From NCBI GenBank assembly GCA_005881215.1, contig VBDZ01000010.1, positions 1-47,951 on the forward strand: DNA of 47,951 nt, given 5' to 3'. This stretch comes from Chloroflexota bacterium. GTDB lineage: Bacteria > Chloroflexota > Dormibacteria > CF-121. How positions within the stretch are numbered: the stretch's first letter is position 1; every line of letters starts with the position of its first letter. Positions 4,835-39,401 of the stretch are shown one piece after another. The notes beneath the pieces were generated by a model. It was not told the DNA's origin, searched no databases, and saw only the letters and a program-made list of their open reading frames with translations. The position numbers and the translations under genes are program-made.

Positions 4835-6034
4835 ATGCGGCTGCGGAATACCGAAACGGACGCGGTGCAGCCGCTGGAGCCCGGCGATCGCCCGGTCGGG
4901 TTGTACGTCTGCGGGATCACGCCCTACGACACCACCCACCTCGGCCACGCCTTTACCTACGTCGTTTTCGATGTCCTGGTGCGCACCCTGCGGGCTTCGG
5001 GCCAACCCGTCCGCTACGTGCAGAACGTGACCGACATCGATGACGACATCATTCGGCGGGCTCGCGAGCTGGGGACCACCTGGGAGCATCTGGCGGCAAA
5101 GGAAACGGCCCTCTATGAGGCCGACATGGCCGCCCTCAACGTGCTCGCGCCCGACGTGTTTCCCCGGGCCAGTCAGACCATCCCAAAGATCACCGAGCTC
5201 ATCCGTCGGCTCGAGGCGCAGGGTCACGCCTACCAGCGCGACGGCAACGTCTACTTCCGGGTGGGGAGCGTCACGGACTATGGGCGGCTGAGCCGGCTGA
5301 GCCGCGAGCAGATGGTGAAACTGTCGGCGGAGCGTGGCGCGGATCCCAACGATCCGCGCAAGCAGGACCCACTGGATTTCATCCTGTGGCAGGCGAGCGC
5401 CGCCCCCGAACCCTGCTGGCCCAGCCCCTGGGGCGACGGGCGCCCCGGCTGGCACATCGAATGCTCGGCGATGGCGCTCGAAAACCTCGGCAAGCAGGTC
5501 GATGTGCACGGCGGCGGCGCCGACCTGATCTTTCCGCATCACGACAGCGAAATCGCCCAATCCGAAGCGGCGACCGGGGTGCGTCCCTTCGCCCGCATTT
5601 GGGCTCATGTCGGCATGCTTCGCTACCAGGGCGAAAAGATGAGCAAGTCATTGCGCAACCTGGTGCTGGTGCGCGACCTGCTGCAGCGGTACGACGCCGA
5701 CAGCATCCGGGTGTTGCTGCTTCGCCACCACTATCGCGAAGCCTGGGCCTACACCGAGGATAAGCTCGACGATGCCGCCGCCTGGACGCGGCGCCTGCAG
5801 GAGGCGGCTCGCGGTTCGCGGCCGGCGGCGGCTCCACGCGACCTTGCTGTCCGGGCTGCCCTGGAGGACGACCTCGACAGCCCTCGGGCGCTGCGCCTGC
5901 TCGAAGAATCCATCGGCCGTGGGGACGAGAGCTGGCGGGATGGCGCCGCGATCCTGGGGCTCCGATTAGACGGGCGCCAGCTGCCGGAGGGAGAAATGAA
6001 AAAGGCGCTCGGGTGGCGAGCGCCTTTCTCTTAA
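4835..6034 (+). CDS. Cysteine ligase of the MshC/cysteinyl-tRNA synthetase family (MshC-like)
   Basis: Class I synthetase-fold enzyme of 399 aa. It joins cysteine either to GlcN-inositol in mycothiol synthesis (MshC) or to tRNA (CysRS). Features favouring MshC: the signature CGITPYDTTHLGHAFTY in place of the CysRS CGPTVYD type, YVQNVTDIDDD, GRPGWHIECSAMA, HHYREAWAYT after GEKMSKS, and no C-terminal anticodon-binding domain (CysRS is usually about 460 aa or more). One CysRS-like trait is HHDSEIAQSE, where many MshC proteins differ. The zinc ligands (Cys in YVCG, Cys in HIECS, His and Glu in the HH motif) are kept. A single-gene call is unsafe without checking for a second cysS elsewhere. A terminator hairpin lies in the last codons. 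Confidence 0.75.
   Translation: MRLRNTETDAVQPLEPGDRPVGLYVCGITPYDTTHLGHAFTYVVFDVLVRTLRASGQPVRYVQNVTDIDDDIIRRARELGTTWEHLAAKETALYEADMAALNVLAPDVFPRASQTIPKITELIRRLEAQGHAYQRDGNVYFRVGSVTDYGRLSRLSREQMVKLSAERGADPNDPRKQDPLDFILWQASAAPEPCWPSPWGDGRPGWHIECSAMALENLGKQVDVHGGGADLIFPHHDSEIAQSEAATGVRPFARIWAHVGMLRYQGEKMSKSLRNLVLVRDLLQRYDADSIRVLLLRHHYREAWAYTEDKLDDAAAWTRRLQEAARGSRPAAAPRDLAVRAALEDDLDSPRALRLLEESIGRGDESWRDGAAILGLRLDGRQLPEGEMKKALGWRAPFS
6004..6032 (+). terminator. Rho-independent terminator inside the end of the MshC-like gene
   Basis: GGCGCTC (6004-6010), a 7-nt loop, GAGCGCC (6018-6024), then TTTCTCTT. The stem lies before the TAA stop at 6032-6034, so the final residues (KALGWRAPFS) are encoded by the terminator itself. 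Confidence 0.7.
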
Positions 6035-6080: not shown

Positions 6081-6509
6081 CTACGCCGTCTTGTTGGTGC
6101 GGTGAACGCGCGGTAACCCGGGCGGCGGAAAGGGAGGCAGATCAGCCGCGCCGCGCCGCTCCAGCTGCTCCCGCAGGGCGACGGTCTCGGCCACCAGCCG
6201 TTCGACATCGATCGTCATACAAGCCGGCCGATAGGGCTCCAACTTGCTGAGCCCGTGGCCAAGCTTGGCGACGGCGCCCCGCCAGTTTCCACGCCGCCAG
6301 TGATAAAAGCCGACCCCAACCTGCAGGATGCCCTGGTAGAGGTAGCGGACCGCGTCCGGCTCCTTGATCCAGATGGCTTCCAGCGTTTCATGCTGTTCGA
6401 AAAACTCCTGGCGGTTGAACTGCTCGATACCTTCGAGCAGTCCGGGAGGCGGCGGATCGTCGCAGCGTGCGGTTCGGGCGGGCGCCGTCTTTTTGAGTCG
6501 GACGGTCAC
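6081..6509 (-). CDS. DUF309 domain protein
   Basis: 142 aa, mostly alpha-helical. The DUF309 hallmark FNRQEFFEQHETLEAIW is at about residues 30-47, followed by the helix LYQGILQVGVGFYHWRRGN. The family is widespread and of unknown biochemical function; the conserved E/H residues have suggested metal binding, but that is not established. Its ATG overlaps the stop of the upstream histidine-kinase-like gene by 4 nt (ATGA), so the two are translationally coupled. Confidence 0.88.
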   Translation of the reverse strand: MTVRLKKTAPARTARCDDPPPPGLLEGIEQFNRQEFFEQHETLEAIWIKEPDAVRYLYQGILQVGVGFYHWRRGNWRGAVAKLGHGLSKLEPYRPACMTIDVERLVAETVALREQLERRGAADLPPFPPPGLPRVHRTNKTA

Positions 6510-37784: not shown

Positions 37785-39401
37785 TCAGTAACCGATAACG
37801 GTACTCGTCCCCGGCCTGGGATCACCGGCGCCCACCAGCATCGTGCCATCCAGCTCGATCACCTGCGCCGCGCCGCCGGCTTCCCAGTCGCCGATCAGGC
37901 CTACCTGGTGGCCGCGCTTCCGGAGCGATTCGGCGATTGCCTCCGAGAATCGTCCTTCGAGCTCCAGGCTGGCATCGGTCCACGAGGTTTGGGAGCCCAT
38001 CCGCCACCGTGGCGCATCGACGGCGGCCTGTGGCGGCATTTCCCGATCCGCGATGTTACTGACGAGCTGGAGGTTGGTCTGCACCTGCCAGAAGGAGCCC
38101 GGGGTGCCGCCCACGATGTGGGGCCGCCCATCCCGGAGCAGCATCCACGAGTTCAGGGTGTGAATCGGCCGCTTACCGGGGGCGAGCCGGTTTGGGCTGC
38201 CCTCTTCGAGGCTGAAGCAGCCCATCCGGTTGTTCAGCAGGATCCCGGTGTCGCCGGCCACCACCCCGTTTCCGGCGTACAGGCTGTGAATGTAGGAGAC
38301 GACATTGCGTGCCTCGTCGACCACGCAGAGATAGGTGGTGTCCGGGTGACCGGCGGGTTCTGGCTGCAACGGCAGGGCCCGGCGTTGATCGATCCGGCCA
38401 GCCAGGGACGCGGCGTGTGCCTTGGAAAGCAGCGGGCCGAGGTCGGTGGGGCTGACCCGGGGATCGCCCACCCGGCTGAGCCGCTCCCGGAGGGCCAGCT
38501 TGTGCGCCTCCACCTGGAAGTGAACCCGATCCACCGGGTCGCTCGGCACCCCGGCGCTCTCGAGGATATTGAGCGCGATCAGGAGGATCAGGCCCTGCGA
38601 TACGGGCGGCTGCTCCAGTACCGTCCAGCCCCGGTAGGTGGTCCCGATCGGCTCGAGGATCTCGGTGCGATGTTCGGCGAAATCACGCTGGGAGAACAGG
38701 CCGCCGGCGCGGTCCGAGGCGGCGACGATCGCGTCGGCGATCCCGCCGCGGTAGAAGGCGCTCGGCCCCTCCGCCTGCAGGGTCCGTAGCGTGCGGGCGA
38801 GGTCGGGCTGACGCAAGACGGCGCCGGCGGGCGGGGGATGACCGTCCGGAAAGAAGATCGCCCGGGTCTCACGGAACGGCGCCGCGACCGCTGCCATCTC
38901 GCGGTTGTTGCGCGCCTGGCGCGCCGTCAGCGGAAATCCGCGCTCCGCGTAATGGATCGCGTCCTCCAGCAGGGTGCCCAGCGACATCGTGCCGTGACGC
39001 TCGAGCGCCGTCCGCCAGGCATCGACCAGGCCGGGGACCGTGGCGGCCAGCCAGCCGGACTCGGGGATCCGTCCCTCGGCCAGATAACGGTCGACGGTCG
39101 CGGCGAGCGGTGCGGCGCCGCTGCCGTTGATCGCGGTCACGGTCTTTCGCTCCGCCGACGCGATCAGCAGGAAGGCATCGCCACCAAGCTGTCCACTCCA
39201 GGGCTCAACCACCGTGAGGACCGCCCCGGCGGCGACGGCGGCGTCGAGCGCGTTCCCCCCGGCTCGCAGCACCCGCAGCCCGGCCGCGCTGGCCAGTGGA
39301 TTGACGCTCGCGATCATTCCGTGAGGGGCTCGACGAGGTTCCTGGGCCGGCCAGCTATCGGTCACGGGTGTCGCGGAATGTCTGGCACCTTCAACGCGCA
39401 T
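37785..39401 (-). CDS. Gamma-glutamyltranspeptidase-like Ntn hydrolase
   Basis: 538 aa. Autoprocessing Thr in PAGHPDTTYLCVVDEARNV (Thr at about 354) splits it into large and small subunits. Other motifs: GMIASVNPLASAAGLRVLRAGGNALDAAVA, QLGGDAFLL, GNGVVAGDTGILLNNRMGCF and the glutathione-binding RMGS. No signal peptide is obvious, unlike many GGTs, so location is uncertain; glutathione is rare in this type of organism, so the substrate may be another gamma-glutamyl compound. Starts inside the last codons of the upstream hydrolase gene (11-nt overlap). Confidence 0.9.
   Translation of the reverse strand: MRVEGARHSATPVTDSWPAQEPRRAPHGMIASVNPLASAAGLRVLRAGGNALDAAVAAGAVLTVVEPWSGQLGGDAFLLIASAERKTVTAINGSGAAPLAATVDRYLAEGRIPESGWLAATVPGLVDAWRTALERHGTMSLGTLLEDAIHYAERGFPLTARQARNNREMAAVAAPFRETRAIFFPDGHPPPAGAVLRQPDLARTLRTLQAEGPSAFYRGGIADAIVAASDRAGGLFSQRDFAEHRTEILEPIGTTYRGWTVLEQPPVSQGLILLIALNILESAGVPSDPVDRVHFQVEAHKLALRERLSRVGDPRVSPTDLGPLLSKAHAASLAGRIDQRRALPLQPEPAGHPDTTYLCVVDEARNVVSYIHSLYAGNGVVAGDTGILLNNRMGCFSLEEGSPNRLAPGKRPIHTLNSWMLLRDGRPHIVGGTPGSFWQVQTNLQLVSNIADREMPPQAAVDAPRWRMGSQTSWTDASLELEGRFSEAIAESLRKRGHQVGLIGDWEAGGAAQVIELDGTMLVGAGDPRPGTSTVIGY

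Follow-up and report, generated by a model that had tools for sequence, protein, structure and literature searches.

The 47,951-nucleotide stretch of Chloroflexota DNA analysed here (the window) carries, at positions 4835-6034 of the plus strand, a gene for an MshC-like cysteine ligase of 399 amino acids, P0001, with an ATG at 4835 and a stop codon ending at 6034; the assignment is based on profile scores and trees. P0001 is probably a tRNA-independent cysteine ligase making a mycothiol-like thiol of the GlcN-Ins type, and it very likely belongs to the ligases of the MshC clade and not to the tRNA synthetases. The sequence-based support comprises its protein family, the lack of an anticodon domain, a second CysRS in the genome, homologues of partner enzymes, phylogeny and the catalytic residues.

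The translation of the gene contains CGITPYDTTHLGHA, HHDSEIAQSE, HHYREAWAYT and KMSKS, and a score of 370 bits against PF01406 ruled out a chance match. P0001 scored 402.3 bits against TIGR03447, the MshC equivalog model, which is below the curated cut-off of 485.1, and 386.1 bits against TIGR00435 (cysS), which is above the curated cut-off of 340. Curated cut-offs alone would name it a cysteine-tRNA ligase and not MshC. With TIGR03447, the actinobacterial proteins L236 and L237 reached 717 and 692 bits. Five further members were scanned: L204, L022 and L048, the last from Levybacteria, passed the cysS cut-off only, and L027 and L050 passed neither. When P0001 was searched against PDB sequences, M. 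smegmatis MshC (321.9 bits) and 1li5 (317.6 bits), which we take to be E. coli CysRS, were about equally close. An AlphaFold model of P0001 (mean pLDDT 88.9, 18-row alignment) was likewise about equidistant from MshC (Z 48.3) and CysRS (Z 49.0). Since the PDB sequence and structure scores were about equal, similarity scores were unable to decide between the two. P0001 might be a truncated second cysteinyl-tRNA synthetase charging ordinary tRNA-Cys, as its passing of the cysS cut-off and this equal structural closeness would allow; we consider this improbable, given its domain content, the second CysRS and the tree split described below.

Pfam (E up to 0.1) detected neither DALR_2 nor CysS_C in P0001, and the same search found both in P0003, a second CysRS-type gene product of 459 amino acids encoded by the same genome (G000; 2.79 Mb in 255 contigs, 88% complete), whose gene has ispF and rlmB as neighbours as read by eye. 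Residues 1-378 of the P0001 model aligned to MshC residues 19-412, and residues 1-381 aligned to just residues 2-398 of a CysRS of 461 residues (1u0b). The absence of the anticodon-binding domain, CysS_C, and the presence of a full-length CysRS in the same genome both argue against a truncated synthetase. The original prediction had described a short ligase without an anticodon domain and had proposed a search for a second full-length cysS; the first point was confirmed by Pfam and the second gene, P0003, was found. Across 61 genomes (the own genome and 60 relatives), a match of P0001's kind, defined as E at most 2.2e-90, occurred in 47. A separate CysRS match was present in 46 of these 47, as fragments only in three (G012, G013 and G024), and G009, which is 82% complete, was the sole genome with the short gene but without such a match. 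In this search, matches of P0001's kind were absent from the 11 genomes of family f4 and from G005 and G008, and that of G053 was a fragment. By this gene content, P0001 is evidently not the cell's own CysRS.

P0001 could also be compared, by description, with CysRS* of Desulfobacterales (Mukai 2017, as cited in the part of PMC9437257 consulted), a CysRS paralogue that is also without an anticodon domain and that charges a special tRNA, SelC*. A role of this kind is very improbable for P0001: a tRNA scan of the window found no tRNA gene, and P0001 groups with MshC in trees of short proteins, MshC and CysRS.

The quick tree was built from 112 hand-picked sequences of 206 extracted homologues together with a typed M. 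smegmatis MshC. It separated 45 CysRS from 68 other proteins (63 short proteins, four actinobacterial MshC and one from Levybacteria) with an SH-aLRT support of 100. The MshC rows were L236 and L237, which are annotated as mshC, one enzyme of solved structure, and L238, which is unannotated and 58% identical to the solved enzyme; L050, from an Actinomycetota MAG, was counted among the short proteins. In the careful tree of 72 rows, 26 full-length CysRS were divided from 46 proteins (41 short, one from Levybacteria of the CPR and four actinobacterial MshC) with a support of 100/100, a split that speaks against a truncated CysRS. A tree uniting P0001's family and the CysRS from its class was rejected (p-AU 8e-5). 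A tree with the family on the same side as CysRS could not be rejected (p-AU 0.386); as the tree is unrooted, this means just that P0001's family may branch deepest within the short group. By phylogeny, P0001 can thus be assigned to the MshC clade, apart from CysRS, and of the two options left by the original prediction, MshC or CysRS, the trees support MshC. Named Chloroflexota loci fell among the rows of the window's phylum in both trees, which identifies that phylum as probably Chloroflexota.

Within the short group, P0001's family, families f2 and f11, L050 and MshC formed one group in the 72-row tree, with a support of 93/92 that is not firm. Actinobacterial MshC was nested among the short proteins in both trees; this nesting was not accepted as proven, because the alternative was not rejected (p-AU 0.181). 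The Levybacteria (CPR) contig encodes its 410-amino-acid member of the short group at L048:1432-2664 on the plus strand, possibly acquired via transfer.

Residues were counted in an alignment of the 63 short proteins, four actinobacterial MshC and 45 CysRS. The Pro of TPY was present in 63/63 short proteins, 4/4 MshC and 10/45 CysRS, and Asn occurred in 40/45 CysRS where 55/63 short proteins have Ser or Cys. The Glu of HHxxE (E239 in P0001; codon at 5549-5551, plus strand) was found in 62/63 short proteins and 45/45 CysRS and in 0/4 actinobacterial MshC, and the Gln three places after it (Q242) in 63/63, 44/45 and 0/4, respectively. The mixed MshC and CysRS signature of the original prediction is real and is explained by these counts: this Glu of HHDSEIAQSE is shared by 62 of the 63 short proteins and by none of the four MshC; read in this alignment, HHDSEIAQSE is a family-wide trait missing from the sampled actinobacterial MshC and no sign of a hybrid. 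The column of Cys26 was Cys in all 63 short proteins, four MshC and 45 CysRS. The predicted zinc ligands C26 (4910-4912, plus strand; C43 of M. smegmatis MshC), C210 (5462-5464, plus strand; C231) and H235 (5537-5539, plus strand; H256) stand in conserved columns, and together with two amino-group threonines, T29 and T66, they were invariant in the sample (63/63 short proteins). The roles of the zinc ligands and these threonines in MshC are taken from the part of PMC9736012 consulted. The HLGH form of the HIGH motif, assigned to the adenylate site by motif and conservation, lies at 4937-4948, and KMSKS, by motif reading, at 5636-5650, both on the plus strand.

P0001 thus resembles actinobacterial MshC (TIGR03447; M. 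smegmatis 3c8z and 8hfm) in its length, the lack of CysS_C, TPYD, HLGH, KMSKS, the C/C/H zinc site and its tree group, but differs in lying under the 485-bit cut-off and in keeping Glu239 and Gln242, which 4/4 MshC lack. With bacterial CysRS (TIGR00435) it shares the catalytic fold, the Glu at the zinc site and the passed cut-off; it differs from them in the missing CysS_C, the 100/100 branch between and the full-length CysRS present besides.

The mycothiol system of Actinobacteria has further members whose homologues occur in P0001's genome, MshA and MshB. The MshA homologue L036 (G000:C251) scored 391.6 bits with TIGR03449, followed by 111.5 bits for the next family and 97.6 for BshA, and remained below the curated MshA cut-off (391 vs 462.5 bits). 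In a phmmer search, Tll1590, which we take to be a cyanobacterial sucrose-phosphate synthase (SPS), was nearly as close to L036 (250 bits) as MshA was (266 bits). MshA-type scores alone were not accepted as proof, because Tll1590 is nearly as close and because 28/69 genomes of the phylum sample described below without a TIGR03447 match, and Deinobacterium chartae too, also match. Since these scores alone are not specific, MshA was judged by residues and trees. L036 has GGMNVY, T134 and S317, at positions with a role in MshA; 6/6 sequences of the SPS/GGQ type have Q, S/A and P there. Among 32 rows of the class, the first of these positions was M in 16 and L in 16, and T and S were present in 32/32. 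From 82 GT4 rows gathered, 63 entered a quick tree and 53 a careful tree, with near-copies and three unrelated paralogues left out. In the careful tree, a class-wide MshA group of 14 rows and four actinobacterial MshA (one by annotation, one with a solved structure and two assigned by identity) formed one group (100/98), apart from the Tll1590 group and the phylum's remaining homologues. L322 (G193) and L324 (G200), which are second GT4 copies carrying a GGQNVY motif, clustered separately, together with a gene from a Burkholderia plasmid.

P0002, an MshB/Mca-like deacetylase of the same genome, scored 229 bits for Mca, 212 for MshB and 83 for BshB; its 211.7 bits against the MshB model are below the curated cut-off of 224.35. 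In the MshB tree, P0002 lay outside the four actinobacterial Mca-type rows, and the support was too low for further placement. In the own genome (88% complete), no MshD was found (best 29.9 bits vs a cut-off of 163.1) and no mycothione reductase (Mtr; best 258.9 vs 635.65 bits), which sets it apart from the actinobacterial system. The best Mtr match was taken as a lipoamide dehydrogenase; the adjoining open reading frame looks, by eye, like the E1 subunit of a pyruvate dehydrogenase. The search for mshA, mshB and mshD put forward in the original prediction thus returned MshA- and MshB-like genes, both below the cut-offs, and not mshD. The original prediction had held that tRNA charging would be favoured if P0001 were the only cysS-like gene in a genome lacking mshA, mshB and mshD; this genome has P0003 and the MshA- and MshB-like genes. 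A search for Ino1 with PF07994 at 1e-10 gave 0/61 genomes and was silent in the C. glutamicum control too, so that it was not usable.

The genes of P0001, L036 and P0002 sit on three contigs. By eye, no thiol cluster was seen within 15-20 kb around mshA and mshB of G000, mshC of G015 and G017, or all three genes of G165. A scan of genome contigs yielded ordinary CysRS for the most part. In the window, a DUF309 protein gene (6081-6509, minus strand) adjoins the ligase gene, and a like gene was read by eye at the same place in L008. The ligase gene is followed by genes for a DUF4395 protein and a thioredoxin-like protein in L016 (2791-3599, plus strand, by Pfam) and L017 (2741-3633, plus strand, by eye), whose genomes (G017 and G015, respectively) belong to two further genera of the family; this pair is absent there in the window. 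A putative metK (S-adenosylmethionine synthetase, by eye) lies directly 5' of the ligase gene in two f3 genomes (L027:223-1449 and L030:250-1476, both plus strand). The GGT-like gene that had been noticed in the window was borne out, as a gamma-glutamyltransferase-family gene at 37785-39401 on the minus strand (370 bits, cut-off 357.85).

Of the same 61 genomes, 55 had an MshA-type match (E at most 1e-60) and 56 an MshB-type match (E at most 1e-30). The short gene and both types occurred together in 39/61, some of these matches being partial and that of G013 reaching just 246.5 bits. At these thresholds Deinobacterium chartae matched besides C. glutamicum among the controls, for MshA at 1e-60 and for MshB at 1e-30 and 1e-40; C. 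glutamicum was the sole control above the curated MshA and MshB cut-offs. Of 201 genomes sampled evenly across the phylum, 132 had a TIGR03447 match at 1e-90, a threshold at which the E. coli and Synechococcus controls also match. These genomes were classed as 100 short, 32 ambiguous or full-length and 69 without a match, where short means 346 bits or more, placement in the quick tree, or, for six members of f3, an assignment based on the tree rows of that family and an identity of about 50% to P0001. MshA matches were found in 90/100 short, 23/32 ambiguous and 28/69 unmatched genomes, and MshB matches in 68/100, 13/32 and 28/69, respectively, in counts not corrected for kinship. G165, presumably Chloroflexus aurantiacus J-10-fl, carries the short gene (L204) together with matches of the MshA type (387 bits) and the MshB type (171 bits).

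Two families departed from this pattern. In f11, six genomes were counted as short (three genes extracted, 419-421 aa) and had no MshA match at 1e-60. In f4, MshA matches were present in 11/11 genomes and MshB matches in 9/11, and the short gene was absent. Two f4 genomes carry CysRS paralogues with a C-terminal extension, of 719 and 726 amino acids (L216:1261-3420, plus strand, in G058; L224:407-2587, minus strand, in G060); in L216 the extension is a GT2 glycosyltransferase domain (PF01406 + PF00535 by Pfam). This fusion might be a replacement ligase in f4, which lacks the short MshC but has MshA- and MshB-type matches.

For the pathway of P0001 we infer the acceptor, the product, a phosphatase and the physiological role as follows. 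L036 would join UDP-GlcNAc and inositol phosphate, some phosphatase would act next, and P0002 would then yield GlcN-Ins. P0001 would bind the thiol of L-cysteine at the Zn2+ held by C26, C210 and H235, form cysteinyl-AMP with HLGH and KMSKS, and transfer the cysteinyl moiety, without a tRNA, to the amino group of GlcN-Ins. The product, Cys-GlcN-Ins, would serve as a low-molecular-weight thiol, either directly or once an enzyme different from MshD had modified it; with MshD missing, the pathway may end at Cys-GlcN-Ins or at some other acyl form. The bacillithiol pathway (BshA, BshB and BshC) follows the same logic of a GT4 enzyme, a deacetylase and a cysteine ligase, but in the own genome BshA and BshB reached 98 and 83 bits against 392 for MshA and 229 for Mca.

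Several findings count against the mycothiol-type pathway proposed here: P0001 and the MshA and MshB homologues are below the cut-offs of their own families (402/485, 391/462 and 212/224, respectively), the thresholds are not fully specific, f4 and f11 are counter-examples, MshD and Mtr were not found, and the genes are spread over three contigs. There is a modest chance that P0001 is an MshC-clade cysteine ligase with a different amine as acceptor (a polyamine or another glycoside) and that its thiol falls outside the GlcN-Ins type. Such an acceptor would suit zinc-site neighbours unlike those of actinobacterial MshC (E239 and Q242 kept), the lack of MshA matches in the f11 genomes whose genes were classed as short, and Ino1 going undetected, in a search whose control was silent as well. 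It is harder to reconcile with an MshA homologue of the own class that groups with actinobacterial MshA and with an MshB/Mca-like deacetylase in the same genome, and a GlcN-Ins-type thiol remains the preferred reading.

A 2018 survey of finished genomes, in the part consulted, placed mshA-D in Actinobacteria only (PMC6282198). In the excerpt consulted of a salt-lake metagenome study, part of the mycothiol genes was assigned to groups outside Actinobacteria, which did not include Chloroflexi (PMC8581802). A mycothiol maleylpyruvate isomerase annotation is mentioned for a SAR202 Chloroflexi genome in the text seen of PMC6123686. Among the matches listed in the open-access literature, none dealt with the biosynthesis of mycothiol in Chloroflexota. 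For Chloroflexus aurantiacus, the section seen of PMC6336425 cites older work in which novel, unidentified thiols were detected; among the matches listed for such a thiol, it was the sole paper.

Short CysRS-like enzymes, with MshC among them and mostly accompanied by MshA-type and often by MshB-type matches, form a group that spans what is probably a second phylum, and curated cut-offs would label P0001, L204 and L022 as cysteine-tRNA ligases rather than MshC. We tentatively suggest, as a possibility that we do not favour, that mycothiol-type biosynthesis is old and widespread in Chloroflexota, that MshC arose there from CysRS, that MshA and MshC later reached Actinobacteria, by descent or by acquisition, from near the class of the window, and that the thiol of C. 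aurantiacus is Cys-GlcN-Ins or a close derivative. If true, the finding would name the thiol system of many lineages and supply an outgroup for studying how mycothiol originated, and it would provide candidate genes for the unidentified thiol of C. aurantiacus, a cultured organism, mentioned in that section of PMC6336425.
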